DNA of 35,193 bases, taken from positions 1-35,193 of IMG/VR virus record IMGVR_UViG_3300030339_000147. One strand, given 5' to 3'. The translations under genes were made by a program, and so were the position numbers. The stretch comes from a virus. Numbering within the stretch: the stretch's first letter is position 1; every line of letters begins with the position of its first letter. This document shows, piece by piece, positions 618 through 18,991 of the stretch. Below the pieces are notes generated by a model that saw only the letters and a program-made list of their open reading frames with translations, was not told where the DNA came from and searched no databases.

Positions 618-673
618 TTTGTGCTCCTTTTGTAATAAACAATATAAAATATAGGGAATAAACGAAAGCCAGA

Positions 674-711
674 GGGCGAACGCCCGTCCCCGTCCAAGGG
701 GGCGGAAGCCC
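674..711. repeat. Cluster of small GC-rich stem-loops
   Basis: Two near-identical hairpins, GGGC-GAAC-GCCC (674-685) and GGGC-GGAA-GCCC (700-711), flank a third possible stem, CCCC/GGGG (688-691 with 698-701). The block is far more GC-rich than the rest of the left end. It lies between the stop of the 63-aa gene and the ribosome-binding site of the ssDNA-binding gene on the leftward transcript, so it could be an RNA processing or pausing site. There is no U-tract, so it is not a classical terminator. Confidence 0.5.
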
Positions 712-713
712 GA

Positions 714-905
714 TTAACGTGATTCAATATGAGCAAGCCAGTATTCCGCTTCAGGTTTAGTTTGAAAGGCAGGTGAGACAACATCATATTCTTCTAGTAA
801 CATAAAGTCGTCCATTTCCGTTCCTTCGTATTCAAATACTGATTCTTTGACGTAACATTGGTCTTTGACAACATAAAAATATGGTAGATTCATTTCATCG
901 TTCAT
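714..905 (-). CDS. Small acidic protein of unknown function (63 aa)
   Basis: I do not recognise this protein. ATG at 905 is chosen because AAGGAGA lies just upstream; the frame is open farther (to 959), but there the alternative ATG has no ribosome-binding site. It has about 10 Glu and 5 Asp against 4 Lys/Arg in 63 residues, giving a strongly negative charge, with several aromatic residues (LPYFYVV, FEYEG, AEYWLAHI). Small acidic early phage proteins sometimes mimic DNA or inhibit host enzymes, but nothing here proves that. GC-rich stem-loops flank it on both sides, making it look like an independently acquired unit. Confidence 0.7.
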   Translation of the reverse strand: MNDEMNLPYFYVVKDQCYVKESVFEYEGTEMDDFMLLEEYDVVSPAFQTKPEAEYWLAHIESR

Positions 906-940
906 GTTATTTCTCCTTTGTGTAGTATATAAGATATAAA

Positions 941-977
941 CCGAGGGAGCGAGCCCCATTCTTGGGGCGACCGAGGT
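941..977. repeat. GC-rich stem-loop upstream of the acidic gene
   Basis: GCCCC (953-957) pairs with GGGGC (964-968) around an ATTCTT loop, within a stretch whose outer parts repeat CCGAGG (941-946 and 971-976). It mirrors the GC-rich block on the other side of the 63-aa gene. There is no U-tract on either strand. Possible roles are a boundary of an inserted unit or a structured 5' leader. Confidence 0.45.
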
Positions 978-1421
978 GGAGAATTGTGTTAAAGATTGAC
1001 AAAATGGTGTTTCCAGAAATGTAAATATATGTCAGGAGATTTTACTTTTGGAAAGTTTTTTAATTTTAGAAAAGTAGTCATTTTGTCACTTTTTTATTAC
1101 AATTTATCCAGTTAATTTACATTACTTACATATATTTACATATATTCATTTATTGTTTGTAAATATATGTATATATTGTAATTAAAATACGACAAAAATC
1201 GAAAAAAAAAAAATCGAAAAAAAAAGTCAAAGTGAAAAACTTCCATGGAAAAAAATGGAAAAACGGACTGAAACTTGCAATTTCAGCGAAAGACAGACAG
1301 AAGCGAGCAATTGAACAAACAATTCAAACTATTGCATTTAAACATTCGAAGTGTTCAAACTCCCGAAGTAGAATTAAGTACTGCTACACGGAGGTAGATC
1401 TGTAAGTTGTGGCTAGGCCAA
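978..1421. other. AT-rich gene-free region, candidate replication origin
   Basis: No credible gene lies here. The 13-mer TGTAAATATATGT occurs at 1020-1032 and 1158-1170, and in inverted form at 1128-1140; the last two extend to a perfect 14-bp inverted repeat (1127-1140 with 1158-1171). TTACATATAT is tandemly duplicated at 1126-1145. TGACAAAATG at 997-1006 is inverted at 1079-1088. Long A-tracts interrupted by TCG follow at 1202-1225, and a TTCCATGGAA palindrome lies near 1240. Iterated short sites next to easily melted DNA and A-tracts are typical of origins. The same features could also be a regulatory region for the leftward genes. Confidence 0.45.
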
Positions 1422-1447
1422 GAAAAAAGCCTCCACATCGTAGAGGC
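1422..1447 (-). terminator. Rho-independent terminator after the 221-aa gene
   Basis: Read leftward, GCCTCTAC and GTGGAGGC form an 8-bp stem with a GAT loop (1429-1447), followed directly by TTTTTT. It starts 17 bases beyond the stop of the 1464-2129 gene and closes the five-gene leftward operon. Confidence 0.9.
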
Positions 1448-1463
1448 TGATTTCTATTATAGT

Positions 1464-2129
1464 TTAGTAAGAGTTGTTATTGAATACAATCTTTATGACT
1501 GTATCCTGATCTGCTATCTGATCATCTGATATTGTATCAAACATACGATGTTCACTGGCGAGGTATTCCTCAGTTACTTCTTCCAGTAGTTCATAGTCTT
1601 CAGCCGGAATGCTAAAGGCTACAATGTCTTGTGTAGTTATCAATTTTCCATGATAGGTTGCAACATATCCTTCATAGTGAAAGTTTGCAGCTCCGCATAT
1701 AGGACAAAAAGCTTGACTGTGCCATACAGCCGGTTTGACGCATGTGCATCTGTTCCAGTTTGGAGCAAAGAAATGCATCATGTTACTTGGGTTCTGCATT
1801 AAGAACAAACGCCAAGCGTGTGTTAACTCCTCACTATAGAATCCAGAGTCTGTATCCAACAATTTCCTTTCCAATTCTTTTCTTGGTACAATCTCATCTG
1901 ATATGTTAGATTTGAGGTATCCTGTTTCCCAGAATGTCATTGAGTCTGTAGATAAGCCAGTAAGCTTAGCTTCTTCTTCAAGATAGTTAGTGAACTGATT
2001 AGTTGTCTTGTCCAGCTCTGGGTGAGTGAACAATACTGATTGGTAGTCAACAGGCTTTTCCTTGGCTGGAATTGTTACAGGAATTACATGAGCATTTCCG
2101 TTTACTCTAACGATTTGAATTAATTTCAT
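1464..2129 (-). CDS. Unknown 221-aa protein with a zinc-binding cysteine cluster
   Basis: I do not recognise this protein. It has a possible zinc site in its second half: C128-x-C130 and C142-P-x-C145-G, a split knuckle like those in small zinc ribbons. The flanks are acidic (ELTHAW, EDYELLEEVTEEYL). There are no membrane segments. ATG follows AAAGGAGA. It is the last gene of the leftward run that starts at 2852 and is followed by a strong terminator. Its position beside the divergent promoter suggests early expression. Host takeover or transcription-related roles are possible but unproven. Confidence 0.75.
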   Translation of the reverse strand: MKLIQIVRVNGNAHVIPVTIPAKEKPVDYQSVLFTHPELDKTTNQFTNYLEEEAKLTGLSTDSMTFWETGYLKSNISDEIVPRKELERKLLDTDSGFYSEELTHAWRLFLMQNPSNMMHFFAPNWNRCTCVKPAVWHSQAFCPICGAANFHYEGYVATYHGKLITTQDIVAFSIPAEDYELLEEVTEEYLASEHRMFDTISDDQIADQDTVIKIVFNNNSY

Positions 2130-2146
2130 AGTGATTCTCCTTTCAC

Positions 2147-2317
2147 TTACATAATATCTTCAGCGTATTCTTCTAACAATAATGTAGATTTAATTAAACC
2201 TGATTCAATACAGGCACGTTCTAGATTTTCAACAATACATTTACAGTTGTAGTACTGATCACCACATTCTGTAGCGATATTCTGTAGATGTTGTTCATAT
2301 GATATTTTCTTATTCAT
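2147..2317 (-). CDS. Small unknown protein (56 aa)
   Basis: Unrecognised small early-type protein, with its start set at the ATG preceded by GGAGAAATAA. The frame is open upstream, but only this ATG has a ribosome-binding site. It contains three cysteines within or near QYYNCKCIVENLERAC and is otherwise mostly helical and mildly acidic at the C-terminus (LLLEEYAEDIM). The next gene downstream begins only about 18 bases later, so the two are cotranscribed. Confidence 0.65.
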   Translation of the reverse strand: MNKKISYEQHLQNIATECGDQYYNCKCIVENLERACIESGLIKSTLLLEEYAEDIM

Positions 2318-2318
2318 T

Positions 2319-2513
2319 TTATTTCTCCAATCTTTTAATACTATTAGCAATACCGAAATCCTGTCCACGTCCGAAGTTATGAACATAGTCATCAAACCAA
2401 GACTTACGTATCCATGCAGGTTCTGGCTCATACTGATTCTCATCATGCATAAATACTTCTTTATAACTGTTGATGTATGTTGTTTCTACTAAACCTGCTT
2501 TACATCTGTTCAT
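2319..2513 (-). CDS. Small unknown protein (64 aa)
   Basis: Unrecognised. ATG is preceded by AAAAGGAGAAATCAA, and that ribosome-binding site lies inside the end of the upstream membrane-peptide gene; the two genes overlap as ATGA, indicating coupled translation. The protein is aromatic and charged (AWIRKSWFDDYVHNFGRG) with no visible catalytic motif. Its stop codon abuts the ribosome-binding site of the following 56-aa gene. Tight packing and clean start signals support it as a real gene despite its size. Confidence 0.7.
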   Translation of the reverse strand: MNRCKAGLVETTYINSYKEVFMHDENQYEPEPAWIRKSWFDDYVHNFGRGQDFGIANSIKRLEK

Positions 2514-2608
2514 TTGATTTCTCCTTTTATAACTGCTATTGCTACAACGACTGTTACTATAACGTATATTAGTATGTTTATTGCATTGCCTTCATAAATA
2601 TACATCAT
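2510..2608 (-). CDS. Single-pass membrane peptide (32 aa)
   Basis: A short gene starting at a double ATG (MMYIYEG) immediately after the stop of the preceding 80-aa gene. Residues 11-27 (NILIYVIVTVVVAIAVI) form one hydrophobic membrane span, followed by a short KGEIK tail. The ribosome-binding site is weaker (AAAGGCAGG, inside the previous gene), so reinitiation after the upstream stop is likely. It overlaps the next gene by ATGA. A longer open frame upstream has no start signal and overlaps the 80-aa gene. Function unknown; small phage membrane peptides are often involved in superinfection exclusion or membrane modulation. Confidence 0.6.
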   Translation of the reverse strand: MMYIYEGNAINILIYVIVTVVVAIAVIKGEIK

Positions 2609-2609
2609 G

Positions 2610-2852
2610 TTACTTACCTGCCTTTCTTTCAAACTCTTTACAATACATACAAGCATGTGGAATGTTCTTGTTGTTGAATGTACATGTTGCCCAATAACAG
2701 TCTGTGTCTGCATAGATGCATGTCTCTGCTCTAAACATGAGTTCAGCAAACTGTCTATTTACTATCTTTGATTCATAGTATGCTACTCTTGCATTTTCGT
2801 ATGCTACATTAACTACTTGCTGTGTTACAGCTTCTGACTTTCTGATCTTCAT
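2610..2852 (-). CDS. Small unknown protein with CxxC motif (80 aa)
   Basis: First gene of the leftward small-gene operon. ATG follows AAGGAGAAACAAT. The N-terminal half is predicted helical (AVTQQVVNVAYENARVAY) and the C-terminal half has cysteines at 45, 52, 57, 68 and 71, including CMYC, suggesting a metal-bound or disulphide-stabilised fold. The C-terminus is basic (KEFERKAGK). I do not recognise a family. Lying directly next to the divergent control region, it should be among the first genes expressed from the leftward promoter. Confidence 0.7.
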   Translation of the reverse strand: MKIRKSEAVTQQVVNVAYENARVAYYESKIVNRQFAELMFRAETCIYADTDCYWATCTFNNKNIPHACMYCKEFERKAGK

Positions 2853-3001
2853 TATTGTTTCTCCTTCTACAATAATAATAAATAAACCAAGACATGATTA
2901 TCTTAGTTACTGTTTACAATAACGTTATTAGGCATAGGGGTGGGGTTTAAAATTTACTATTTTCACTTATACTCTATATACATATATAGAATACTTATAT
3001 A

Positions 3002-3086
3002 TTTTGTTGTTCAATAAAACTTACAAAATATGCCTACTCAAAATATAGAACCATCGGATACCTAATTCTTTTTGTTGTTCAATAAA
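3002..3086. repeat. Direct repeat pair TTTTGTTGTTCAATAAA
   Basis: The 17-mer TTTTGTTGTTCAATAAA occurs at 3002-3018 and 3070-3086, a 68-base period. Similarity extends beyond it: both copies have AT-x-G-x-ATAC 16-17 bases upstream and AC-plus-ACAAA downstream, so each unit spans roughly 45 bases with one small indel. This looks like a duplicated regulatory site or tandem promoters for one direction. Confidence 0.7.
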
Positions 3087-3146
3087 CTAACAAATAAACA
3101 CCCGAAAAATAATCCGTATATAGAAGACGGGGGGTACCCCTAACAC

Positions 3147-3175
3147 TTGACATTTTTGTAAATATTTGCTAAACT
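3147..3175 (+). promoter_or_regulatory. Rightward promoter for the packaging operon
   Basis: TTGACA (3147-3152), 17-base spacer, then TAAACT (3170-3175) with TGC directly before it, i.e. a perfect -35 and a TGn-extended but poor -10. The 12-mer TATTTGCTAAAC (3163-3174) overlaps the -10 and recurs inverted at 7483-7494 behind the second rightward promoter, so it may be a binding site for a shared regulator. Confidence 0.6.
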
Positions 3176-3201
3176 CAAAATATCGAAAGGAGATCATCAA
3201 T

Positions 3202-3576
3202 ATGGCAAAATTTACCAAACACATGACAATCTCATACAATCAAAAGACCAGTCAGTTCGCACTGGACTTTTCCGAGGGCCTTCCTGCTCAATTAATAATT
3301 GATATGTTATTAACTGCGCTGGTGAAGGTCATTTCTATGATACTCAAGAATGTGCCCCAATCCCAAAAAGATATGATGAATACCGATATGTACGACCGTA
3401 TGAATATCGCATTCACCAATATCCTGGAAGGCATCATCCCATCCTCAGAAATCCCAGATTTAACTGAAGAGGCTATTCTTGAAGCTGAGAATAAAATCAT
3501 TAAGGATGCCGCTACTTCAGGTATGCAATTAACCGAGTATCTCAAGAAACAACAGGCTAACCGAAAACCATGCTAG
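3202..3576 (+). CDS. Unknown protein, possible small terminase subunit (124 aa)
   Basis: First gene of the packaging operon, overlapping the large terminase start by 7 bases. The start at MAKFTKHM is chosen because AAAGGAGATC lies directly upstream; the frame continues 12 codons farther, but that would run into the promoter -10. Residues 30-50 form a hydrophobic helix (LIIDMLLTALVKVISMIL), and residues 87-120 are a charged helix rich in Glu and Lys. Its position matches that of small terminase genes, but I see no clear helix-turn-helix, so the assignment is positional only. Confidence 0.65.
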   Translation: MAKFTKHMTISYNQKTSQFALDFSEGLPAQLIIDMLLTALVKVISMILKNVPQSQKDMMNTDMYDRMNIAFTNILEGIIPSSEIPDLTEEAILEAENKIIKDAATSGMQLTEYLKKQQANRKPC

Positions 3577-5189
3577 AACGATGCCCCCGTTGCGGACAAA
3601 AGTGGCAACCCACTACAGCAATGAACACCGGTCCTTCCGAGTTCTGGAAAGAGTGTTCCAATAAGAATTGTAATTCCTATTACAATACTTACATTCCGCA
3701 AGCCCACCAACATGCATTCCACGAAGACCCACATATGTTCGTTGGTAATTTCGGGGGTTACGGTTCCGGTAAGACTCTAACCTCACGCGAGGAAATTTAT
3801 AAGCACGTCCTCATTACCCCTGCCGGTAACACACTTATTGGCGCCAATGTTGCATCCCAGTATGAACAGACGATTAAACGAGAAATCGAAGCGGATATGC
3901 CAATCGCATTCATACGAAAGATCAACACACAGAAACAGTACTATGACCTTCAGAATGGACATCGGATTATGTACCGCCCGTACGACGACCCGGATAAGCT
4001 CAGATCCTATAATCTTACGTCCTTTCTGATTGTTGAGGCATCCGAGGTGAAGGAGCAGAGTTTCACACAGCTCAAGACACGAGCTAGAAATCTTGCTGCA
4101 ACTTCACCTCTTATGGATGCCAACACCAACCAACCAATCTGCAAAATGGCAGCCAATGGAGTATTGATTCCTGTAATCGAACACAACTGGATTAAAGGAA
4201 TCATCGAATCCAATCCGTCCGCTGGGTGGATTAGAGATAACGTCCTCCTTAATTCAGATGACATTTTCAAGCATGGTGAGGTCATAGACATTTTCGAAGT
4301 TGACCCCATGCGAGCAGACAAACATATTTCCACTCATGTCACAAGTACTTCTGCCAATGAGTTTTTACCACCGAACTTCATTGAACAGAATACGAAAAAT
4401 AAACCGCTGTGGTGGGTTAACCGTTTCATTTATGGCAGTTTCCTTTACGCCGAGGGGCTTGTGTACCCTGGTGCGATGAAAGTCGTTGTGGATGATTTTG
4501 ACATCTCAAAGGAATGGAAACGAATGGTGTCCTTTGACTACGGTCTTGCAGATGATGCGGTTTTCCTATTCGCAGCAATAGACGAACAGAAATCTATTGT
4601 CTACCTTTATAAAGAAATCCGAACCAACAATAAAAACGTTGAGGAGTTAGCCAACATTTTAAAACAGGGAATGGAAGACATTCCGATAGGTGGATTACTG
4701 GGCGCTCCAATCATAGATCCCAAGTCCGGTTCCAAACGGGACTATGATAAGAAGACGTTAGCAGACCATTTCATTGACTACGGCATTAGCTTCGTTCCCG
4801 GACAAGTGAACGTTGATGCGCGAGTCTTCAGACTTAACACATATATCGAATCGGGCAAGTTAAGAATTTTCCGATCCTGCGTTGGACTCAACCGCGAGAT
4901 GGCAAACTACAAGTTTGCTGCAGATGAAAGTGTCCTGTCAGGATTTACAGGTAAACCGGTTGATAAAGACAACCATGGTGTCAATGCCCTGGAATGGATT
5001 ACCATGGAACTTCCCTCAGATCCTAAGAATCTAATTTATGGAATCTACAATAAATACGGGGTTGACATATCCCGCGAATATGACCCAATTAAAAAATTTG
5101 CGATTCACGCATTATCTGATGACGACGACTATCAAGAACATCGAGAGATGCCCTTTGAAATGGAAGTCGATTACAACTACGGTTGGTAG
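3570..5189 (+). CDS. terL: Terminase large subunit (packaging ATPase-nuclease)
   Basis: Motor that cuts concatemeric phage DNA and pumps it into the prohead through the portal. The ATPase domain has Walker A GGYGSGKT (residues 62-69) and a Walker B-like FLIVEASEV (152-160), with E155 in the catalytic glutamate position. The RNase H-like nuclease domain shows D323 in SFDYGLADD, D383 in IIDPKSG and D467 in KDNHGVNALEW. The 539-aa length is normal. Unusual is an N-terminal zinc-ribbon-like segment before the ATPase: C5-x2-C8 and C29-x4-C34. The start overlaps the preceding gene by 7 bases, so translation is probably coupled. Confidence 0.93.
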   Translation: MLERCPRCGQKWQPTTAMNTGPSEFWKECSNKNCNSYYNTYIPQAHQHAFHEDPHMFVGNFGGYGSGKTLTSREEIYKHVLITPAGNTLIGANVASQYEQTIKREIEADMPIAFIRKINTQKQYYDLQNGHRIMYRPYDDPDKLRSYNLTSFLIVEASEVKEQSFTQLKTRARNLAATSPLMDANTNQPICKMAANGVLIPVIEHNWIKGIIESNPSAGWIRDNVLLNSDDIFKHGEVIDIFEVDPMRADKHISTHVTSTSANEFLPPNFIEQNTKNKPLWWVNRFIYGSFLYAEGLVYPGAMKVVVDDFDISKEWKRMVSFDYGLADDAVFLFAAIDEQKSIVYLYKEIRTNNKNVEELANILKQGMEDIPIGGLLGAPIIDPKSGSKRDYDKKTLADHFIDYGISFVPGQVNVDARVFRLNTYIESGKLRIFRSCVGLNREMANYKFAADESVLSGFTGKPVDKDNHGVNALEWITMELPSDPKNLIYGIYNKYGVDISREYDPIKKFAIHALSDDDDYQEHREMPFEMEVDYNYGW

Positions 5190-5198
5190 GAGGTACCC

Positions 5199-5471
5199 AT
5201 GGACTATATATTTCTAATAGCATTTACAATGTTGATTATCGCATTCGGTTTGATTGTCTATGCAAGTAAAGGCATTAGTATCAACGTTGTTTACAACATA
5301 CCGAAAGCAGATCCTCCGGTGTACCAGACACCTGTGAGCCCTGGTTCAGATTCGCAGTATGACGAAAAGGGCGATCTTCGAGATAAAGATTTAGAAAAAA
5401 CTTTCACCAGCATGACACAAGCCATGCAGGATATTATGTTAGATAGGGAGGACACAAACAATGGCAAATAA
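5199..5471 (+). CDS. Small membrane-anchored protein (90 aa)
   Basis: Starts with a strong TAGGAGGTACCC ribosome-binding site directly after the terminase stop and overlaps the portal gene by 11 bases. Residues 4-22 are one hydrophobic membrane segment (IFLIAFTMLIIAFGLIVYA), followed by a proline-rich linker (PKADPPVYQTPVSPG) and a charged, helical tail. I do not recognise a family. Its placement between terminase and portal suggests a role in assembly or packaging at the membrane, but it could equally be an unrelated membrane protein carried in the operon. Confidence 0.75.
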   Translation: MDYIFLIAFTMLIIAFGLIVYASKGISINVVYNIPKADPPVYQTPVSPGSDSQYDEKGDLRDKDLEKTFTSMTQAMQDIMLDREDTNNGK

Positions 5472-7377
5472 ATTCGAACCGAAGTTCAAAACAGATAAGG
5501 CCAGAGGCAACGTCCTCAGTGTTGGATCTGGAATCAGTGAAGGCGGTAAACCTAAAATAGACGATAGCAGATTCAGAGATGAACAAGTCTTATCTAAACT
5601 ACAGGACTTCTGGAATATTGCGACAACGTACTATTCGCGCGACCAGAAGAAAATGGTCCTGTTAGATGCAACTGACAAAGGCGATATCTGGAGAGCACTG
5701 GGCGCCAAGTTTCCAGTGTATCAGATTCTGCCAGATACCAACTGGGTATCATATGTGAAGAACAACATCATGGCTTCCATATATACAGTTGCGAAATCAG
5801 CAGACGTCGTTCCAACCAGAGAGTCAGACAAAGACTTATGTCTTGATCTGTCGTCATTGCTGAATCATTTCTGGGATGTTTCCAGAGTTGGCTTCCAGCA
5901 ATTCCTTGCAGGTGAACGAGCATCACTTCTCAACCTAGGCGTCACTCAAGTAGGTTGGTCAAAAGAGATGCCCGGTTTCGATATGACCAAAGACAACGTC
6001 AAAGGAAATGTATTCATTCGAAACATAGATCCGATGAAGTATCGAAGAGACCCGTTTGCAGATACCCTGGATAACGCAGGTTGGGTTTGCACCTATGATC
6101 GTTATCATAAATCCATATTCCTTGCCAATGATTTATATCGTGATAAGTTTAAAGCATTTACTTTCAAAGCAGGTATGGCAAATACGGATTTACCAAAAGC
6201 ATTGGACTCACCAAATACAGCCTCTTCAAATGATCATTACAATTTAATCATTTGGTGGTACAGAAAACCCAATGGTAAAATTCGTGAGGTCCACACCTTA
6301 GACAACAAATACATTTTGCATGAGATCGATGAGATTCTGCCAAATGAATATCCGTTTGCTGAACTGTACTGCAATACACCAGGATCCGGGCTCATTGGAG
6401 TCAGCGAACCTGCAAAGATTTTTGCGGACAACATGGCATATAACATGATGCAAAGTATTCAGTTAACAGCCGAGTACAAAAACCAGAGACCGCCCAAGTT
6501 CGTTTCCAGCCAGGCAGGATTGAACATCGCAGCATTTACCAAACACGGTGATGACGCAGATCGAACCTTCATTGTAAATGGCGACGCAACCAAAGCTGTG
6601 CATTACCATCAATTCCCATTCCCCAGCAATACCCTACCCATGGCAATGCAGTCTCTCGGATACAACATCAAAGATTCTTCTGGAGTTGATGGTAGATATA
6701 CCGGCAGAGACACAGGTTCAATTATCACTACCGGTGGAACACAAGAAATGTTCAACCGTGTAACCTTAATTGACACACCTAAAATTATCCTCTATGAGGA
6801 ATACGCGTGTAGACTCGCTAAGTTGATTTTGAAGAATATGATCTGTCATTCTCCAAAGCGAACCTACTATCTCAGAGATATAAAAGGAATCGAATCCGAT
6901 CCAATGACACCCGCCTGGATCACAAAAGAATTCGACTTCCCAGAAATCGACGACGACATCCTCTTCAACTATTCCTTACAGATCTCCTCAGAGTTACCCA
7001 AAAATAAACAACGAGTTGAAATGTGGGCCAACAACATGATGGAAAAACAAATCCAGTATCGTGAACAGGGTTCCACTATCGATCTCATTACTGAAGAGGA
7101 ATGGATTAGTTACCAGGATGTCCCATACAAAGAACAGATGCTTAAACGAATGGGCGTACAACGTGCGCAAGATTCTTTGGACATCGCCAACCAAGTAGTT
7201 TACGAATACGCCGGAGCACTTGAACAAGGCATGGATCCTAACCAAGCGTTAGTCATGGCTTCTCAAGGACTCGACGCCAAACGGCAGGGAGCTGTAACTC
7301 CTTTCGAACAGATGATGCAGCAACCAGCCGGAGGCGGTATGGCGAGTGGTGGCATGATGCCATCCCAAGGCTTATAA
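5461..7377 (+). CDS. Portal protein (head-tail connector)
   Basis: Dodecameric ring at one capsid vertex through which DNA enters and leaves. The call rests on position (after terminase, before scaffold and capsid), length (638 aa, in the range of podovirus portals), and sequence character: a charged N-terminus, an aromatic wing region, a central GSGLIGVSEPAKIFADNM segment typical of portals before the long helix, then DGRYTGRDTGSIITTGG. The C-terminal tail is Met/Gly/Gln-rich and low complexity (PAGGGMASGGMMPSQG). Ribosome-binding site GGGAGG with ATG; it starts inside the previous gene. A terminator follows 47 bases after the stop. Confidence 0.85.
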   Translation: MANKFEPKFKTDKARGNVLSVGSGISEGGKPKIDDSRFRDEQVLSKLQDFWNIATTYYSRDQKKMVLLDATDKGDIWRALGAKFPVYQILPDTNWVSYVKNNIMASIYTVAKSADVVPTRESDKDLCLDLSSLLNHFWDVSRVGFQQFLAGERASLLNLGVTQVGWSKEMPGFDMTKDNVKGNVFIRNIDPMKYRRDPFADTLDNAGWVCTYDRYHKSIFLANDLYRDKFKAFTFKAGMANTDLPKALDSPNTASSNDHYNLIIWWYRKPNGKIREVHTLDNKYILHEIDEILPNEYPFAELYCNTPGSGLIGVSEPAKIFADNMAYNMMQSIQLTAEYKNQRPPKFVSSQAGLNIAAFTKHGDDADRTFIVNGDATKAVHYHQFPFPSNTLPMAMQSLGYNIKDSSGVDGRYTGRDTGSIITTGGTQEMFNRVTLIDTPKIILYEEYACRLAKLILKNMICHSPKRTYYLRDIKGIESDPMTPAWITKEFDFPEIDDDILFNYSLQISSELPKNKQRVEMWANNMMEKQIQYREQGSTIDLITEEEWISYQDVPYKEQMLKRMGVQRAQDSLDIANQVVYEYAGALEQGMDPNQALVMASQGLDAKRQGAVTPFEQMMQQPAGGGMASGGMMPSQGL

Positions 7378-7424
7378 AAAAGCGGTATCTCCCCCGCTAG
7401 ACATTGACAGCTCCTTTCGGCAAA

Positions 7425-7449
7425 ACACCTACTATATGTGGGTGTTTTT
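7425..7449 (+). terminator. Terminator of the packaging operon
   Basis: ACACCTAC (7425-7432) and GTGGGTGT (7438-7445) form an 8-bp stem with a TATAT loop, ending in TTTTT. It separates the terminase-portal operon from the scaffold-capsid operon; the next promoter -35 starts three bases after the T-run. Confidence 0.88.
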
Positions 7450-7451
7450 GC

Positions 7452-7480
7452 TTGACATTTTATGACATTTATGGTAATGT
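7452..7480 (+). promoter_or_regulatory. Promoter for the scaffold-capsid operon
   Basis: TTGACA (7452-7457), 17-base spacer, TAATGT (7475-7480) preceded by TGG. The element CTTGACATTTT (7451-7461) is identical to that at 3146-3156, and both promoters combine a perfect -35, TGn and a weak -10. Downstream lie GTTTAGCAAATA (7483-7494), the inverse of the site at 3163-3174, and TCCGTATA (7540-7547), also present at 3113-3120. A perfect TATAAT at 7544-7549 has no good -35 but could be a second start. Confidence 0.55.
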
Positions 7481-7577
7481 ATGTTTAGCAAATAAGTTTA
7501 GGTTCCGCCCTATAAAAAGTGTGTAAAAAGATTTGCGACTCCGTATAATGTCGGCGCGTTATACAGAAAGGAGTTCT

Positions 7578-8393
7578 ATGTCAGAAGTCTTAACAAAGGA
7601 AGATCTAATGTCCAGCTTTGGGATTCAAGTTCCAACAGCAGAAATGGACGAAGATCCACCCGAAACTGACCCACCTGCTGAAGACGAAATCGATGAGGAT
7701 GCACCCAACGACGAAGCAGACGTAGATGCAACCGAAGAGGACGACAACGCAGAGCCACCTGCAGATGAACCGGAACAACCGGCAAAACCTGCAGCAGCAA
7801 AAGATCCCATGAAGGGACTGCAATCGAAAGATGCAGCAGCCTTCGCCAAAATGCGAATACAGAATACTCAGTTCAGCGCAGCACTCAAAGGAATAGCCGA
7901 ACAGCTAAACTTAGACGTCAATGTTGATCAGGAGACTCTGCTCGCGACAATCCAGAATGTTGTGTTACAGGCCAAAGCCAAATCACAAGGAACTTCTCCG
8001 GAAGTCCTAGCTGAATTGGAAGGACTCAGAGCAGATCGACTTGAATCTCAGAAAGTTACCAGATATACCAAATCGAAAGATAGTCTACTGGCACTTCAAG
8101 ACAAATATTCGATTCCTGATGATGACCTACCCACATTCTTAGACGAACTGCTTGAAGCAGACTTAGATCCCCGTGAAGTTGATGTCGATTTCGAAATGGA
8201 ATATCTACGGAGACACCAAAAAGAAATCACTGAGAATGCGGTGGCAAAAGCTCTTGCCGATGCAAAAGTCTTAACAGATAAGAACAATCGTGCCCCAGGT
8301 ACGCTTCCCGGAAAAGGCAAGCAAGTGGACACATCCAAGCGAATTGAAACGGTCGCAGACCTAGACGCACTTTTTAAAACCATTGAATTATAA
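7578..8393 (+). CDS. Capsid scaffolding protein
   Basis: Likely internal scaffold that guides prohead assembly and then leaves or is degraded. The gene stands immediately before the major capsid gene. The 271-aa product is very acidic over residues 15-70 (runs of Asp/Glu with Pro and Ala), then helical, with coiled-coil-like stretches (LAELEGLRADRLESQKVT) and a Lys-rich C-terminal third, as expected for a scaffold whose C-terminus contacts the shell. The start MSEVLTKED is chosen for its AAAGGAGTTCT ribosome-binding site; an in-frame ATG 15 codons earlier lies in the leader without one. No protease motif is seen. Confidence 0.8.
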   Translation: MSEVLTKEDLMSSFGIQVPTAEMDEDPPETDPPAEDEIDEDAPNDEADVDATEEDDNAEPPADEPEQPAKPAAAKDPMKGLQSKDAAAFAKMRIQNTQFSAALKGIAEQLNLDVNVDQETLLATIQNVVLQAKAKSQGTSPEVLAELEGLRADRLESQKVTRYTKSKDSLLALQDKYSIPDDDLPTFLDELLEADLDPREVDVDFEMEYLRRHQKEITENAVAKALADAKVLTDKNNRAPGTLPGKGKQVDTSKRIETVADLDALFKTIEL

Positions 8394-8418
8394 CTAAAGC
8401 TAAATGGAGGAACCTATT

Positions 8419-9729
8419 ATGGCTAACAGTGTAACCCTAAACGCACTAAACGCAACATACGATCTGAACACAGTCGTAGAGTTAGCTAACAGTGCCAACT
8501 GGGCGGTATCCAATGGCTCAGGTAGTTTGACAGACGGTAACAAACAGGTTAACCTGATTCGTCCAGAAGTCTTCTATTCAAAGCAATTGCTTGATACCAT
8601 CCGAATCGATGCAGGCGAGTTTAAATACTACAAGCTTGCAGACGAATCCCCAATCCAAAACCAGGCCGAAAAATTGGTACTCAGACGTTGGGCTCCTTTA
8701 CAGGCTCACACTACCCCGCTTGAGGAAGGTGTGCCTCCCAAATCTGATAAGGGATCCGTAAAGAAATACGAGATCACCGCTTACCAGTATGGCCGATTTA
8801 TGGAATTTACTGACAAAGTAGATTTCGAAGTAGTTGACCCCGTTGTTGCTCATTACAGTAAAGAGTACTCAATCGTAGTTCTCGAAACACTGGATATGCT
8901 TGCCAGAGAGTGCTTGTTCTCAATCGCTCAACCATGGTATGCTGCTAGTGCCGTAGGCTTCGAAGCACTCGATTTCGATAGCATCCCCAACATCACTGAT
9001 CTGAGAATGATCGGGCTGTCCTTCAAAAGACAGTTGGTAAAACCCAGAGCCAATAGCATGTTCCAGGTTATCGCAGGTCCGGAATTCTTCTACGATATGC
9101 TGTCTGACGCAACCGTAAAAGATTACATGACCATCAACCGAGACACCAAAGATATGTATAGTGGTTCAATCCTGTTCCCGATGTTCGGATTCAGCTTTGA
9201 CGAAACCCTGGTCTGCCCGACTCATGGCAACTATGTTGACATGGTAGGCGCACCCGGTTCCGAAGTAGCTACTCCTGCAAAGAGAATCTATAGAATGAAT
9301 GGCGCAACTCCAGAGTTCGCTACCATCTATCAGGATACAAAGATCGACACCCAAGTTGGAACCACAGCCACAGTATGTACCATCGCAGATGGTTATGTAA
9401 CTGATGGTCTGACTGGCAAAGACGCCTCATTCATTCCAGACCTGGAAGTTTGGGACATTGAAGGATTGACCTATGACGGTCATTCTGACTGGGCCGAATT
9501 CAAAGTACAGCATGTACTGATCGTAGGTAAAGAAGCCTTGACCAGAACAGGTTTGTCCGGCGAAGGTCAAGCCAAGATGTACGTTAAACAAAAGGGTTCA
9601 TCCGGAGTCTTGGATCCTATCGATCAGAGACAGTCAATCGGTTTCAAGATCAATTCTGTAGGCTTCGGCTCAACCAGAACTGACGCAATCGTAGACTATA
9701 TCTGCGTGCCTACTCAGTGCAACATCTAA
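8419..9729 (+). CDS. Major capsid protein, N4-gp56-like (HK97 fold)
   Basis: Main shell protein. After MANSVTLNAL, the protein shows the pattern I know from the N4-gp56 capsid family: VFYSKQLLDTIR (51-62), LRRWAPLQAHTTPLEEGVPP (88-107), then KKYEITAYQYGRFMEFTDKV (115-134), a LETLDMLARE helix and a long beta-rich second half. At 436 aa it is in the family's usual range. The start five codons inside the open frame is chosen because GGAGG lies directly upstream. The gene uses many C-ending codons compared with the AT-rich tail genes, consistent with high expression. No separate decoration protein is obvious. Confidence 0.88.
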   Translation: MANSVTLNALNATYDLNTVVELANSANWAVSNGSGSLTDGNKQVNLIRPEVFYSKQLLDTIRIDAGEFKYYKLADESPIQNQAEKLVLRRWAPLQAHTTPLEEGVPPKSDKGSVKKYEITAYQYGRFMEFTDKVDFEVVDPVVAHYSKEYSIVVLETLDMLARECLFSIAQPWYAASAVGFEALDFDSIPNITDLRMIGLSFKRQLVKPRANSMFQVIAGPEFFYDMLSDATVKDYMTINRDTKDMYSGSILFPMFGFSFDETLVCPTHGNYVDMVGAPGSEVATPAKRIYRMNGATPEFATIYQDTKIDTQVGTTATVCTIADGYVTDGLTGKDASFIPDLEVWDIEGLTYDGHSDWAEFKVQHVLIVGKEALTRTGLSGEGQAKMYVKQKGSSGVLDPIDQRQSIGFKINSVGFGSTRTDAIVDYICVPTQCNI

Positions 9730-9757
9730 ACGGGGCTTTTAGTTAGGAGGATACCAA

Positions 9758-10177
9758 ATGGCTAAAACCCGAATTGAGTCTGAAGTTGAAGCTCTGGAAA
9801 GAGATGAAGCGGAAGCTCTAGAAAAAGCAAAACAACCTGTAGAGATAATCTCGTCCAAACCAGTAAAGGCCAAAACATTGGTTCAGGCAGAAGGACAACG
9901 ACGTGCTCTCAAAAAGAGTTACCTCGAACAGGGCAAAGTAATGTTCTCAGCATCACCTATGTATAAACCATATTTCGGTGAGAACATGAAAATCATGATA
10001 AATGGATTCGCAATCTTCGTTCCGCTAGATGGAAGATCAAGATCCATTCCAAAAAGCTTCGCCGCGGAAGGCTTCCGCAAAATTCGAGAAATCGATAACT
10101 TCCTCCTGAAGAAGGAGAGACGGTCCGATATCCAGAATAACGTAGAAACTACGCCCGGCGATTTACGACTTATCTAA
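9758..10177 (+). CDS. Unknown virion-associated candidate (139 aa)
   Basis: Unrecognised. It follows the capsid gene with a strong TTAGGAGGATACC ribosome-binding site and is the last gene before a terminator, so it is coexpressed with scaffold and capsid. The first 35 residues are a Glu/Ala-rich helix (EVEALERDEAEALEKAKQ), likely coiled-coil, followed by a basic segment and a small beta-like domain around GENMKIMINGFAIFVPLDG. The composition and location suggest a structural or head-accessory protein, but a function cannot be named. Confidence 0.7.
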   Translation: MAKTRIESEVEALERDEAEALEKAKQPVEIISSKPVKAKTLVQAEGQRRALKKSYLEQGKVMFSASPMYKPYFGENMKIMINGFAIFVPLDGRSRSIPKSFAAEGFRKIREIDNFLLKKERRSDIQNNVETTPGDLRLI

Positions 10178-10211
10178 GATAGGGGAGGGCAACCTCCCCT
10201 TTATCTTTTTA
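10176..10211 (+). terminator. Terminator/attenuator between capsid and tail genes
   Basis: GGGGAGG (10182-10188), GCAA tetraloop, CCTCCCC (10193-10199); flanking AAGATA and TATCTT can lengthen the stem, and CTTTTT follows. A GNRA loop makes the hairpin very stable. No clear promoter lies between it and the next gene 11 bases on, so read-through probably feeds the tail genes at reduced level. Confidence 0.85.
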
Positions 10212-10221
10212 GGAGGAAACA

Positions 10222-10683
10222 ATGTTTATCAATAAGATTGTGAACAAAGTTAACGGAATGTTAGCTGGTGAAACTCTTAGTTACACACGAATGATAACTT
10301 ACCTTGACGAGGTAGGTGACGAAATAAATGCTAAACTTTGCTCTACTTTTCCAACAGTCTCCGAGGCTTTTGATTTAGCACAAGTTGAAGCTGGTGAACC
10401 TGTTTCACTGGCTGTTATTGATTATCCGTATTTTCCAGACGAATATGTCCGTGGAGTCTTATGCAAAGGCGCCGCGTATAAATTCTACATTCAAGATGAA
10501 GAGGGTATTATCACAGCCGACAAGTATGGTTATGAATATAAAGATGCCCTTTTTACAATGGAACGAGACTTCCTAGCCAAAGTTCCTGAAGAGTTCCAAA
10601 AAGACACTACTGCAAGTGTGGTTAAAGACGAATACTACCGTGCTGGTAATATGCCGTTCTCATTTAACCAGTTTGGAGAATAA
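10222..10683 (+). CDS. Putative head-to-tail adaptor protein (153 aa)
   Basis: Likely joins the portal to the tail nozzle. Evidence is positional and structural: it lies between the head genes and the large nozzle-like gene, is about 150 aa as adaptors are, and starts with amphipathic helices (INKIVNKVNGMLAG, YLDEVGDEINAKL) followed by an aromatic DYPYFPDEYVRGVLCKGAAYKFY segment of the type found in connector subunits. The ribosome-binding site is AGGAGG. The next gene starts three bases after its stop, with the ribosome-binding site inside this gene. No diagnostic motif. Confidence 0.55.
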   Translation: MFINKIVNKVNGMLAGETLSYTRMITYLDEVGDEINAKLCSTFPTVSEAFDLAQVEAGEPVSLAVIDYPYFPDEYVRGVLCKGAAYKFYIQDEEGIITADKYGYEYKDALFTMERDFLAKVPEEFQKDTTASVVKDEYYRAGNMPFSFNQFGE

Positions 10684-10685
10684 CG

Positions 10686-13600
10686 ATGGCAATACAAATT
10701 ACAACCAACTCATTTAAATATAACGCTCGTTTACCCAGAGGATACAACACAGAATCCAACTTCATGTTAGGGATGTCTGATACTCTTGGCGCTCTGCCGG
10801 ATGGCCAAGTAAAAACGATCGTTAATTTTGATATCATCAATGATGGTCAGAATCTACAACCTCGACCAGGTTTAAGATCTTCGAAGTTATTCATTCCAAA
10901 TATTGCTGCGGAATCTACAGAATCTGATTATCACGATGCTAATGCGGGGTATCTGTTAAATGCTGCAATCGAAACTGTCGAAAGTGATGGTAAGACCCAC
11001 TATCAATTCATTGTTGCTCGCTGTAACAAGGAAGATAATACAGGACATCTTTATGTAGCATCTGGTGCTGATGCTTTAAATTCTAACGCACGAGATGCTC
11101 AGTCATTTAAAATGAGCGTACGCAAAGATATCCCAGAAGATAATATCTCACTGGGGTACACAATGCTGAACACATTAGATATCGATCATCCTGTGCAAGC
11201 TGGTTGTTTATTTAATAAGCCGGTTGAAGCTAAAATTCATAATGTGCCTATTCAGATTTCAGAACACTTAGGCATGGGCGATAATGAATCCATAGCGGAG
11301 TTAATCGGTTGTTGGGGTTTTGGTAGTTCCTATTATTTCTTAACGAAGGATAAAACAGAACTGACTGATAAAAATATCTGCATATATAAAACAAAGTATG
11401 ACGAAACATCAGGACAATATGAATTGACTCCAATCACTATTAAGCAACCCAACGCCTCTGAAGCTGCAACATACGGTTTGAATATGTTATTGGATAACCC
11501 TGAAACTTTTGTAAACAAAGTTGATTCTACTGTAACTGAAATTGATTGTAATGGAATACTACTGTATGATACCAGAGTTGCAGCAGAGCATATCGAACTT
11601 TACCCCAGAAAGAACAAGTCTTATAAGGTTCGTTTAAACTATACCGCAATTCCTAGTGATGACAAATGGTTAGTTAAACTATTGTGGCGTGAACAAGCCG
11701 ACGTCAGTTGGAATGAATTTCATGCGCAATATATAGATATGACTGGTCGAGCCGATGGTTCAGACTTACCCATTGTGGAAAAAGCACTAGTCTTTCCATC
11801 GAAAGATATCATGATTCGTGCCGAGATATATAAACAAATTTCTCCTGGATCCGACGATCATGTGGGCGTCGATTACTTTACCCGATCGGGGCATTCGTTT
11901 GCGATTGCCGTAACAGCGTCCACACTCGTTGGATTTTTCCTGGACAGAGTTGTTGAAAAGTCTCTTGAGAATACAGAAATCATTAACTATGATCTGAAGA
12001 CAGCGACTGGTTTAGGTTACTGGCGTAATCGACTGTACATTTATGGAGTACCCAGAGACCCCAAAATACTCTTCCTGAGCGATTTAAATGACCCTGGTTA
12101 CTTCCCGTACCCTACTAACGCAATTAACTTCGATTTTCCTGTAATTCATGCAGTAGAGTATATGGGCAAATTGCTTGTATTCACTACAAAACAAATCGTA
12201 ATGATTACAGCAAATCCAGATGGTATGACTTGGAACAAAGCAATTGTCCAAGATAATTTATCAATTGATCCATGGGATCGACATTTAATTCAACCGGTTA
12301 AGAATATGGTATTCTTCAAATCCGGTAATTACTATTATATGGTGGTTCCCAAAGCCATATCTATGACAGGTGAATTAACCATGGCTCCCGTATCTATACC
12401 CATTACAGATTTCCTGGATAATTTCCAAGAGCGTGTCTTCGAATATCTGGATCAGATATACCCCGCTTTGAAAGAACAAAATCTAAGTGAGTCTCTTAGA
12501 CTTGCAACGTATTACAATTATTTGGATTACGAAGATATCCATAATGTTTACGTTTATAAATACGAAGAACGTTTTATCCATATCGACCTTCAATACAACT
12601 ATGTTTCTAGAACTTGGAAAATATATGTTTATGAAGGACAAGATTTGATTAAACCTTATAAACATAACGCTACACAAAAAGGTGAGTTGATGGCTTCTAC
12701 ATTCTTTGACAACCTGGAAGTTCAAACCTTTACAGAACTGGTTACAACTAACGTAGATGGTTCTGATGAAAAAGTTGTAGATGAAATGATTTTACGAACA
12801 AGCACAATAGATGTCCGAGGCATAGAACGACTTCGTTATTCTCGACCCGATCTTGCTAATCCTGGTGCAAGAGTCTATACATACTCCGATGGAATAGAAT
12901 ATTCCGCAACACATAACCGTATCATATACATTTTCAACCCAGATAGACGAATCGTTATTCCAGTGGAAAAAGATGATACCTATGGTATTCGTTATCAAGA
13001 TCTTGTAAATAAAGATATGGCCCTTACCGAGTCCTGGCAACTTGAAAAAGAAGTTGAAGGCTACTGGGTAAATGTTACTTCCGGTAAAACAGTGTGGCCT
13101 TTAAAAGATAGGACATTCAGATATAATTTATCTGCGCCTATCACTTCCGGAACAGTACTCAAGATCCTAGATCGTACATATATCATCAACTCAATTCAAG
13201 GCGATGAGTATCGAGATACCACAAGAAATGGTGATGATTTACTAATTAAATGGGTTAGAGGAAATCAATATCAATTTATCTTTGATTACGACCTTCCAGA
13301 TAATGATGCTCCTGTCATTAAAACATTTGTATTAGATGAATCCATAGGAGGCACTGTTACAGGAAGATGTATTCAATTTTTCAAATATAATCCGTTTACC
13401 AAACATGATTATTATGTTCCGAATAATATTACCATTCAATGTGCAGACAACCTAACGGATATGTTACTTCCGGAGAAAATCGAACAGTTAGGCAGAATTG
13501 CCAAATCCCTATCCAGTACCATTGAAGCATCTGTTCAAGACGTAGAAGATGGGATTACATTCCAGAATTGGCAGTTTCTAGATACCGGAAACAGGGAATA

Positions 13601-14006
13601 TAACCAAGAGCATAAAAAGAGATATCGGGAATTGCAGATATTTATAAACAATCTTGGAGGCTCCCCACTTGATTTCAGTATGTCCTTTACTGTAGACGAC
13701 GTAGAAAAGATGGGGATGTACGAATATGTTGTAGAACAAATAACAGACCCCGATGACCCCAAATATGGTCTACTATATATTACACCTAATCCCGTTTACC
13801 AACCCGAACTACATGTTGATTCTGAAGTTCGATTAAATACTTGGGGACTTGATGCGTCATTGTTCCCCGAACTCAGTCTTTGGAAATTGCGTATGCCGGT
13901 TGGTGGTAAAGGTTACTCTCCAAGATTTAAAATCATTTCCAGAAATCAAACTGATTATACAATCATGAGTTATACCTGGGTACATCGAACAATGTACCTA
14001 AGATAG
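10686..14006 (+). CDS. Tail nozzle / stabilisation protein (T7 gp12-like role)
   Basis: Probably forms the distal tail tube of a short-tailed virion. The 1106-aa beta-rich protein opens with a KTIVNFDIINDGQNLQPRPG region, as nozzle proteins do (a short statement of 'raw' arms then PRPGL), and around residues 435-560 has propeller-like blades: LGYWRNRLYIYG, SDLNDPGYFPYP, MGKLLVFTTKQIVMIT, KNMVFFKSGNYYYMV. Similar strings typify nozzle proteins of T7-, N4- and crAss-like phages. It is longer than T7 gp12 (about 800 aa), suggesting extra domains in the C-terminal half. Start coupled to the upstream adaptor gene through TTTGGAGAA. Confidence 0.7.
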   Translation: MAIQITTNSFKYNARLPRGYNTESNFMLGMSDTLGALPDGQVKTIVNFDIINDGQNLQPRPGLRSSKLFIPNIAAESTESDYHDANAGYLLNAAIETVESDGKTHYQFIVARCNKEDNTGHLYVASGADALNSNARDAQSFKMSVRKDIPEDNISLGYTMLNTLDIDHPVQAGCLFNKPVEAKIHNVPIQISEHLGMGDNESIAELIGCWGFGSSYYFLTKDKTELTDKNICIYKTKYDETSGQYELTPITIKQPNASEAATYGLNMLLDNPETFVNKVDSTVTEIDCNGILLYDTRVAAEHIELYPRKNKSYKVRLNYTAIPSDDKWLVKLLWREQADVSWNEFHAQYIDMTGRADGSDLPIVEKALVFPSKDIMIRAEIYKQISPGSDDHVGVDYFTRSGHSFAIAVTASTLVGFFLDRVVEKSLENTEIINYDLKTATGLGYWRNRLYIYGVPRDPKILFLSDLNDPGYFPYPTNAINFDFPVIHAVEYMGKLLVFTTKQIVMITANPDGMTWNKAIVQDNLSIDPWDRHLIQPVKNMVFFKSGNYYYMVVPKAISMTGELTMAPVSIPITDFLDNFQERVFEYLDQIYPALKEQNLSESLRLATYYNYLDYEDIHNVYVYKYEERFIHIDLQYNYVSRTWKIYVYEGQDLIKPYKHNATQKGELMASTFFDNLEVQTFTELVTTNVDGSDEKVVDEMILRTSTIDVRGIERLRYSRPDLANPGARVYTYSDGIEYSATHNRIIYIFNPDRRIVIPVEKDDTYGIRYQDLVNKDMALTESWQLEKEVEGYWVNVTSGKTVWPLKDRTFRYNLSAPITSGTVLKILDRTYIINSIQGDEYRDTTRNGDDLLIKWVRGNQYQFIFDYDLPDNDAPVIKTFVLDESIGGTVTGRCIQFFKYNPFTKHDYYVPNNITIQCADNLTDMLLPEKIEQLGRIAKSLSSTIEASVQDVEDGITFQNWQFLDTGNREYNQEHKKRYRELQIFINNLGGSPLDFSMSFTVDDVEKMGMYEYVVEQITDPDDPKYGLLYITPNPVYQPELHVDSEVRLNTWGLDASLFPELSLWKLRMPVGGKGYSPRFKIISRNQTDYTIMSYTWVHRTMYLR

Positions 14007-14015
14007 GAGGTCGTA

Positions 14016-14336
14016 ATGTCTATCACATATATTCCTAACTTTATAAGATCCGCCGAAGATATGAAAGCTGGCGAAAAGATCTCAGCCGAAAAATGGAACG
14101 CAGTTCATAATCTACTCGTTACTCAGGGTGACAAAAACTCTGAAACAATCCTGGCCATTGTTGATGCATTCAATCAACTTGAATTAAGTCCTCCGATTAT
14201 TCCTTTTAAGACCATTGAAAATTCCTTTGATCCGGGAACCGTTGGTGAGATCTGTTTTGATTATGGCTATATCTATATCTGTGTTTTAACAAACACATGG
14301 AGACGTTTCGCAACAGAAAGTTGGGGCGGTCTATAA
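14016..14336 (+). CDS. Small tail-region protein (106 aa)
   Basis: Unrecognised. TAGGAGG precedes the ATG, nine bases after the nozzle gene stop. The first part (GEKISAEKWNAVHNLLVTQGD) looks like the short amphipathic helix found at the start of tail-fibre adaptor proteins, and the C-terminal part has aromatic beta strands (CFDYGYIYICVLTNTWRRF). It may bridge the nozzle and the fibres, but this is inference from position. Confidence 0.65.
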   Translation: MSITYIPNFIRSAEDMKAGEKISAEKWNAVHNLLVTQGDKNSETILAIVDAFNQLELSPPIIPFKTIENSFDPGTVGEICFDYGYIYICVLTNTWRRFATESWGGL

Positions 14337-14346
14337 GGAGGGCATT

Positions 14347-14508
14347 ATGGCACGAACATTAAAAATAGTCAACCGTGCCCAACCTGATGGTGAACAGGAA
14401 CTTACAATCCAGGAACTCATTAATAATGTATTGGATGAAGTTCCACCAGGTACAGGCGAAGTCGATTATGCATACTCAAATGCAGAGATCGATACCATAG
14501 AATTTTAG
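14347..14508 (+). CDS. Short tail-region protein (53 aa)
   Basis: A small gene that fills the gap between two tail genes. ATG lies after AAGGAGGGCATT, and the stop TAG is followed by AGGAGG of the next gene. The product is acidic and begins MARTLKIVNRAQPDGEQELT; its sequence shows no recognised motif. Perfect start signals and tight packing on both sides support it. It is probably a small structural or chaperone protein for the fibre that follows. Confidence 0.75.
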   Translation: MARTLKIVNRAQPDGEQELTIQELINNVLDEVPPGTGEVDYAYSNAEIDTIEF

Positions 14509-14520
14509 GAGGTATATCAA

Positions 14521-15423
14521 ATGAAATTCGTAAGTTTAGACAATTTAACTAGAGCCTTTGGAAAGATCAGAATTGATCTTGCTACAAAAGCCGTTAAACT
14601 CAGTGGAGCTCTCACAGACACTGACTCATTCTTAATCATAGATGCTGCTGATACGGAAACGATTAATGGCACAGCATCTGTCAAAAAGATTAAACGAGTT
14701 ACCTTTGCTGAATTAAAAACATATCTTAGTGGTTTTTTCTCAGCCGCTAACGGAATGGTTTATAAAGGTACACTTGGCACAGCCGGGACAGTCACAGCAG
14801 TTCCGACAACCTATGCGGTTGGCGACACCTACAAAGTGATTACAGCCGGAACATGGGCCGGAGCCGTACTCGAGCCGGGCGATCTGATTATCGCTATTGT
14901 CGCAAGAACCGGAACCGGTAATTTGAATGGTGACTGGACATTTGTTCAGACCAACATTGATGGTGCTATTGCTGGTCCTGCTTCGTCAGTAGACCACAAC
15001 CTAGTTCAATTCAACGGAATCACAGGTAAATCTATCGAAGATTCTGGAATTGCTGCCGCTAATATCTTAGTTAAAACTGGAGACGGTTCCAACGTAGTTA
15101 ATACATTTTCAGCAGCAGCCAACCATACAACGAATCTTGTAACTGGTGAAACCTTAGCGGTATCACTTGGTAAGATTCTGAAATGGTTCACGGATCTAGG
15201 AGCTGCCGCGTGGTTAGCAGTTGGCACCATAGCAGGTACGGTTGCCGCAGGAGACCATCTTCATACAGGTACTTATGCACCAAACACACATGCTCATGGT
15301 AATGTCACCAGTGTTGGTGCAATTGGAACAACTATTGATTTACCAATTATCACCGACACCGCAGGTGTAATGATTGCAGGTGCTTGGGCGACTAATGCTG
15401 ACATCGACGCACTTGTAATATAG
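14521..15423 (+). CDS. Tail fibre / receptor-binding protein
   Basis: Probable fibre that contacts the host surface. The N-terminus (FVSLDNLTRAFGKIRIDLATKA) resembles the virion-attachment ends of fibre proteins. Next comes a module TDTDSFLIIDAADTETINGT...KKIKRVTFAEL (32-65), then a trimeric-fibre style region: GPASSVDHNLVQFNGITGK and SIEDSGI. Near residues 244-262, DHLHTGTYAP and THAHG form paired H-x-H motifs like those that bind metal ions in T4-type fibre tips. Gly/Thr/Ala-rich composition fits a beta-helical shaft. 300 aa is short for a fibre, in keeping with a small podovirus. The following gene has a related module. Confidence 0.7.
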   Translation: MKFVSLDNLTRAFGKIRIDLATKAVKLSGALTDTDSFLIIDAADTETINGTASVKKIKRVTFAELKTYLSGFFSAANGMVYKGTLGTAGTVTAVPTTYAVGDTYKVITAGTWAGAVLEPGDLIIAIVARTGTGNLNGDWTFVQTNIDGAIAGPASSVDHNLVQFNGITGKSIEDSGIAAANILVKTGDGSNVVNTFSAAANHTTNLVTGETLAVSLGKILKWFTDLGAAAWLAVGTIAGTVAAGDHLHTGTYAPNTHAHGNVTSVGAIGTTIDLPIITDTAGVMIAGAWATNADIDALVI

Positions 15424-15432
15424 GAGTAACAC

Positions 15433-16014: not shown

Positions 16015-16027
16015 AAAGGAGATCAAT

Positions 16028-16690: not shown

Positions 16691-16701
16691 GGAGGTCTAT
16701 T

Positions 16702-16908
16702 ATGAAAGAATCAACTAAAATTAACTGGTTAAAAAAATTTAAGTCATGGCCACTATGGGCTGCCATCGCATCCTTCGTTGCTTTGATCGTTCAACAGTTT
16801 TGGGGTTTTGATATTGGTGACCAGCTCAATGATATCCTAACATCACTGTTTGGAATTTTGATCCTATTAGGTATCGTCAATAATCCCAATAGCCGGGGTA
16901 CAATCTAA
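16702..16908 (+). CDS. phiLC3-family-like holin
   Basis: Forms membrane lesions that time lysis and release the lysin. The 68-aa product has a basic N-terminus (KINWLKKFKSWPLW), a first membrane segment (AAIASFVALIVQQFWG), a short loop (DIGDQLNDILTS) and a second segment (LFGILILLGIV) before NNPNSRGTI. This layout, including the INW start and the LLGIV-NP-x-x-GT end, matches what I know of phiLC3 holins of Gram-positive phages. AAGGAGGTCTATT precedes the ATG, directly after the lysin. Confidence 0.85.
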   Translation: MKESTKINWLKKFKSWPLWAAIASFVALIVQQFWGFDIGDQLNDILTSLFGILILLGIVNNPNSRGTI

Positions 16909-16929
16909 GCATCAATGGAGGGCAGAGAT

Positions 16930-17343: not shown

Positions 17344-17353
17344 GGAGATCGAT

Positions 17354-17959: not shown

Positions 17960-17980
17960 GAACTTGCAATTAAATTACAA

Positions 17981-18987: not shown

Positions 18988-18991
18988 CTAT

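Follow-up and report, generated by a model that had tools for sequence, protein, structure and literature searches.

In T4-type phages, stem-loop linkers known as PeSL (promoter early stem-loop) lie at gene boundaries and have been proposed to shuffle genes between related phages (available text of PMC4503421). In the haloarchaeal virus HGTV-1, a TATA-box and an inverted repeat precede genes and were suggested to serve regulation and shuffling (available text of PMC3950731). Cluster K mycobacteriophages carry extended start-associated sequences (ESAS), inverted repeats located just upstream of translation starts in genes of different families (available text of PMC3203893). Here we describe a locus of an uncultured phage in which two GC-rich stem-loops frame a small acidic gene whose place is taken by an unrelated gene in related contigs. 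We read this block as a slot through which small accessory genes beside an SSB-like gene are exchanged, a reading to which we give a probability of about 0.6.

The window, by which we mean the whole stretch of DNA analyzed, is a full IMG/VR virus record of 35,193 bases. It is likely a genome fragment; a sister contig runs past its left end. It encodes a terminase whose nearest named matches are in the Paenibacillus larvae phages API480 and SV21 (~36% identity), together with a family A DNA polymerase, a YqaJ/RecE-like exonuclease, an MCM-like ATPase, a major head protein and an M23 peptidase. Related terminases occur in three GTDB records, all metagenome bins, labelled Clostridium sp., Paludibacteraceae and Clostridia. 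Because of the Paenibacillus phage matches and the strong AGGAG sites, our guess is a host among the Bacillota. Nearly one third of the record is occupied by a single 3356-aa ORF (18992-29062), for which neither Pfam nor PHROGs nor PDB sequences gave a match. N4 hairpin promoters have a 3-nt loop; we considered such promoters here, with the large ORF as virion RNA polymerase, and dropped the idea, as the loops are not 3 nt long and the ORF has no match.

The acidic gene, its stem-loops and their transcription unit

On the minus strand, the order of features is a 221-aa gene, a terminator, AT-rich non-coding DNA, stem-loop 1, a leader, the acidic ORF, stem-loop 2, a second leader, the SSB-like gene, a terminator and the leader of the next gene. 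The intrinsic terminator that follows the 221-aa gene (1428-1448, a 9-bp stem then TTTTTT) marks the left edge of the transcription unit. The other one (95-122, 12 bp) lies in the linker behind the SSB-like gene (26-126), which also holds the next gene's leader, and the acidic gene and the SSB-like gene both fall between these two terminators. The SSB-like gene (150-617, 155 aa) takes its name from a weak match to a PHROG annotated as single-strand DNA binding (E 0.021). The AT-rich stretch before the slot (985-1427, ~440 nt) contains T tracts and repeated ACATATATTTAC, of which three copies are counted on both strands, and may be a replication origin, in which case single-stranded ends would be common there. 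A 29-nt imperfect inverted repeat (1112-1186) lies inside the same stretch.

The initial annotation had described GC-rich hairpins at 674-711 and 953-968 enclosing one gene in AT-rich DNA, and its coordinates and stems proved correct. The perfect stems made of G-C pairs only are found at 674-685 (GGGC-4-GCCC), 688-701 (CCCC-6-GGGG), 700-711 (GGGC-4-GCCC) and 953-968 (GCCCC-6-GGGGC). With overlapping registers counted, the 35,193 bases contain 15 stems of at least four G-C pairs, against 5.96 +/- 2.66 in 50 dinucleotide shuffles, and six of the 15, again counting overlapping registers, cluster within 295 nt at the slot. GC content over 36 nt is highest in 668-712, where it peaks at 0.78 for the whole window, and it reaches 0.72 in 941-976.

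Stem-loop 1 (941-984, minus strand) stands 5' of the slot around a core of GCCCCA-AGAA-TGGGGC (953-968), and is followed by an AT-rich leader (906-940) that carries an AAAGGAG ribosome-binding site and has no sigma-70-like match. The slot gene (714-905, minus strand) starts with ATG behind this AAAGGAG and encodes the 63-aa protein P0001. Stem-loop 2 lies 3' of it in a segment (651-713, minus strand; the stem-loop itself at ~664-713) that includes the start of the SSB leader. A repeat search of the window found the two stem-loops to be neither copies nor reverse complements of each other, and each core occurs once per contig rather than as a repeated motif.

Promoter and terminator scans gave little at these positions. 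A scan of the minus strand over 618-663 and 906-990, for promoters of the sigma-70-like type only, returned none. The terminator scan found a weak 5-pair match at 942-958 and none at 664-713, and no T tract directly follows stem-loop 2. An Rfam search of the window and of the corresponding locus in the sister contig (L010) gave no match. Folded RNA was compared with shuffles of the same composition. Around stem-loop 2 (660-725), z-scores were 0.26 on the minus strand and -1.57 on the plus strand, and on the gene strand two stretches (z 0.26 and 0.20) did not rise above composition. Around stem-loop 1, z was -2.43 (plus) and -0.80 (minus) for 925-985 and -2.40 (minus) for 904-985, such that two of three stretches beat the shuffles somewhat. 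Since stem-loop 2 separates two genes that share a transcription unit and lacks a T tract, processing or stabilization of the mRNA seems a likelier role for it than termination.

Conserved linkers around unrelated genes

Searching with the SSB-like protein identified two related contigs, IMGVR_UViG_3300029989_000116 (G001, the sister contig) and 3300037280_000159 (G002), and a search with neighboring genes added 3300029981_000198 (G003), which breaks at window base 1201, short of the slot. A fourth near-identical contig (L018) starts within the terminase gene and also stops short of the slot. The slot is thus spanned by three metagenomic contigs, the window included, with two alleles. G001 and G002, which come from two different samples, both hold an unrelated 96-aa ORF (2124-2414 in L010, with a counterpart in L003). 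The same two stem-loops flank it in unchanged order, and the ribosome-binding-site context in front of it is also the same.

The region-by-region comparison of the window with L010 of G001, counted in alignment columns, shows near-identical linkers and, between them, genes that are replaced or highly diverged. Above the slot, 991-1200 is identical at 210 of 210 positions. Stem-loop 1 with its leader (906-990) matches at 78 of 85 positions, with 42/44 for the stem-loop (941-984), where one of the two changes (960) falls in the loop, and 31/35 for the leader (906-940). The stem-loop 2 segment is identical throughout (63/63) despite an adjoining gene that is 77% identical; at a given start, a run of this length has a chance of ~8e-7 under a uniform identity of 80%. 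Identity then falls to 26/33 at 618-650, to 361/468 (77%) across the SSB-like gene, a divergent allele with dN 0.12 and dS 0.80-0.88, and to 5/23 at 127-149, before rising to 99/101 in the linker behind it. G001 shows no difference from the window over 991-19,030 (16,000/16,000 for 3031-19,030), and the only substitutions listed for 905-3300 are at 990, 981 and 960, a listing that leaves out gap columns below 1215. G002 differs from the window by 22 mismatches across 902-10,036. Divergence thus changes abruptly at base 990. Since 18 kb above this base are free of differences, the sequence below it either entered one of the two backbones by recombination or was attached by the assembler.

Joining by the assembler would mean that strain lineages that differ in the genes before the SSB-like gene occur together, that the end of one was attached to the backbone of the other, and that the linkers were kept as regulatory elements. 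Every sequence here is metagenomic, the window contig ends only 990 nt beyond the switch, and G003, from the same population, breaks near the slot. The alternative arrangement is nonetheless present in two contigs from two samples, and stem-loop 1 of the window is complete, with differences of its own at 981 and 960, so even a chimera would leave two strains that share the linkers and differ in the gene. On balance we regard this explanation as rather unlikely.

The shared linkers also bear on the proposal that the block is an inserted cassette. No empty site, without a gene between the stem-loops, was seen, and both spanning relatives (2/2) carry a gene there. What stands is a replacement slot, as both relatives keep the two stem-loops around an unrelated gene; an insertion is not supported, given that no empty site was found and that the hairpins are not copies. 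A gene with an inverted repeat on either side could recall an inserted mobile element and its ends, yet the stem-loops are not related to one another, the block encodes no transposase, and both alleles consist of a gene with both stem-loops. We rejected transposon ends because of the unrelated stem-loops, and a mobile element of any kind is extremely unlikely. The initial annotation had also likened the layout to a moron; taken strictly, as an extra gene absent from close relatives, a moron does not fit relatives that carry a different gene instead of an empty site. Its idea of following the presence or absence of the whole block in relatives divides accordingly: the flanking stem-loops are kept in both, and the acidic gene is absent from both.

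The linker cores are peculiar to this phage population. The core of stem-loop 2 was not found in GTDB genomes and, among viral contigs, was found only in the two already known. In a survey of 61 terminase-related IMG/VR viral loci, stem-loop cores occurred in two (L016 and L017, which are G001 and G002), and tblastn with the SSB-like protein likewise found only the loci of these two contigs.

Slot proteins and a candidate mechanism of exchange

For the 63-aa protein, the earlier count of about 15 acidic and 4 basic residues was confirmed (15 D/E, 4 K/R, pI 4.05), and none of the other 28 tabulated ORFs of the window, this one included in the count, is as acidic. The 96-aa protein has 16 acidic and 9 basic residues, which makes it much less acidic, and the two give no meaningful alignment. 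No homologue of the 63-aa protein was found in phages, plasmids or PDB sequences. IMG/VR gave four pattern stretches, none of them confirmed, and a direct search in G001, G002 and G003 was negative (0/3). Family libraries gave only E 0.056-0.17 (PHROGs and Pfam) or nothing (NCBIfam, PADLOC), and a single-sequence structure model (pLDDT 47) is too poor to judge the fold. The 96-aa protein matches only the two known contigs, with none in phages or PDB sequences, and has one PHROG score (E 0.084); a search with its model (pLDDT 63) matched no viral fold at E <=0.001.

The acidity of the 63-aa protein and its place next to the SSB-like gene would suit a DNA mimic or an inhibitor of a host nuclease or polymerase, as had been suggested from its charge. 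Sequence searches do not bear this out, with neither homologue nor family, the predicted structure is not usable, and the other protein that occupies the slot is far less acidic. We consider such a function very unlikely.

Under the exchange-slot reading, one small accessory ORF directly upstream of the SSB-like gene would be framed by two GC-rich stem-loop linkers. Both linkers are conserved, they are not identical to each other, and each is followed by an AT-rich leader with a strong ribosome-binding site. Related phages that infect the same cell would exchange this ORF, here along with a divergent SSB allele, through homologous recombination in sequence that is conserved across the linkers and beyond them, which would swap the gene between the stem-loops. 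A linker would offer any incoming ORF both short homology and ready expression signals, namely an unchanged leader and ribosome-binding site. The YqaJ/RecE-like exonuclease and SSB of the phage could help the exchange. In the RNA, the stem-loops between the two genes probably govern how the mRNA is processed or how stable it is, or serve as weak attenuators. The sequences show conserved linkers around unrelated genes and the switch in divergence; we infer recombination as the cause of the swap, the role of the stem-loops as RNA, and an accessory, moron-like character for the slot gene. The right-hand crossover falls outside the window, and the conservation of the linkers could also reflect plain purifying selection.

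Such selection is central to an explanation in which the stem-loops act purely at the RNA level, as RNase III-type processing sites, attenuators or 5' stabilizers, and the gene was replaced by illegitimate recombination filtered for intact frames. The single transcription unit, the ribosome-binding sites directly downstream and the fact that the sole change in the core of stem-loop 1 falls in its loop are all consistent with this. Identity at 63 of 63 positions, loops and spacers included, exceeds what a structural constraint alone needs, however, and the z-scores are mostly weak. We hold this explanation to be possible, if on the unlikely side. A bolder form of the exchange-slot reading would make the linkers dedicated recombination sites that load interchangeable small host-takeover or counter-defense genes, always into the same expressed position beside the SSB gene, with the YqaJ/SSB machinery of the phage carrying out the exchange. 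We find it doubtful that the linkers are specialized to this degree.

Other possible cassettes in the family and comparison with known systems

Another close pair of the family (L020 and L026) has a replaced block (2357-5125 in L020, 2648-6622 in L026) between flanks that are mainly 96-97% identical, with one piece at 94%; one short piece inside the block is 70% identical. Inside it are the gene that occupies the SSB position and those upstream of that gene; the SSB-like label comes from position and general look only. One of its edges carries a GC-rich inverted repeat with different interiors, directly before the ribosome-binding site of the next gene; none was seen by eye at the other edge. 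The intergenic stretches upstream of the terminase in this pair (reverse complement ~4005-4146 and 5250-5395) share the GC-rich terminal inverted repeats GGAGAGGGG/CCCCTCTCC around different interiors, at one edge of the replaced block. In a third pair, a segment of ~700 nt is present in L034 (7285-8023) and absent from L037 (1-761); it is flanked by 42-nt perfect direct repeats, the second of which overlaps the start of the terminase gene. Of 62 records, 14 contain direct repeats 25-400 nt long, and because most of them look simple or coding, repeated linkers do not appear to be a general habit of the family.

The sister contig G001 carries two further regions of note. In the first (L010:10757-12514), a retron-type reverse transcriptase of 389 aa (11169-12338) lies between two 39-nt direct repeats that are 95% alike, each with a small CCC/GGG hairpin inside, and is preceded by ~370 nt of non-coding DNA. 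It matches the NCBIfam retron St85 RT at E 2.8e-57, although under the cut-off, and PADLOC RT_II-A at E 1.5e-53. Judged from its sequence, the arrangement fits a phage-borne, retron-like accessory cassette framed by linkers; no swap was seen at it. The second (L010:6890-10736) is an apparent ubiquitin-like operon that encodes a 76-aa Ubl-like protein ending in NGGF (weak TUG-UBL match, E 0.012), an unknown 615-aa protein, a JAB-like protein (weak, E 0.026) and a ThiF/E1-like protein (E 2e-20). By tblastn, the Ubl-like protein is found in 15 of the 61 terminase-related loci, that of G001 included.

In the available literature on stem-loop cassette exchange and conserved boundary sequences, we found nothing closer than PeSL. 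As far as the accessible accounts describe them, HGTV-1 resembles the present locus in the inverted repeat and promoter-like stretch that precede genes, whereas its motifs stand before the majority of the left-hand ORFs (PMC3950731) and ours are single copies. ESAS, again unlike the single copies seen here, occur in multiple copies as imperfect 17-bp repeats linked to a start-associated sequence of 13 bp, and the available text of PMC3203893 reports no swap between identical backbones. With PeSL the window shares a stem-loop in an intergenic linker that flanks exchanged genes. PeSL, as described in the part of the account available, form a dense set of one motif with an early promoter in T4-type phages, whereas here two different single-copy stem-loops have no promoter recognized by the sigma-70-like scan, in a phage unrelated to T4 by its terminase. 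Because each stem-loop is single-copy and lacks a recognizable promoter or a good terminator, they are not PeSL proper; by analogy with the published outline, they may work in a PeSL-like way. Should the linkers indeed act as exchange points, they could serve as bait for more slot alleles in metagenomes, without any need for gene homology, and conserved stem-loop linkers in this role would extend beyond T4-type phages and haloarchaeal viruses.
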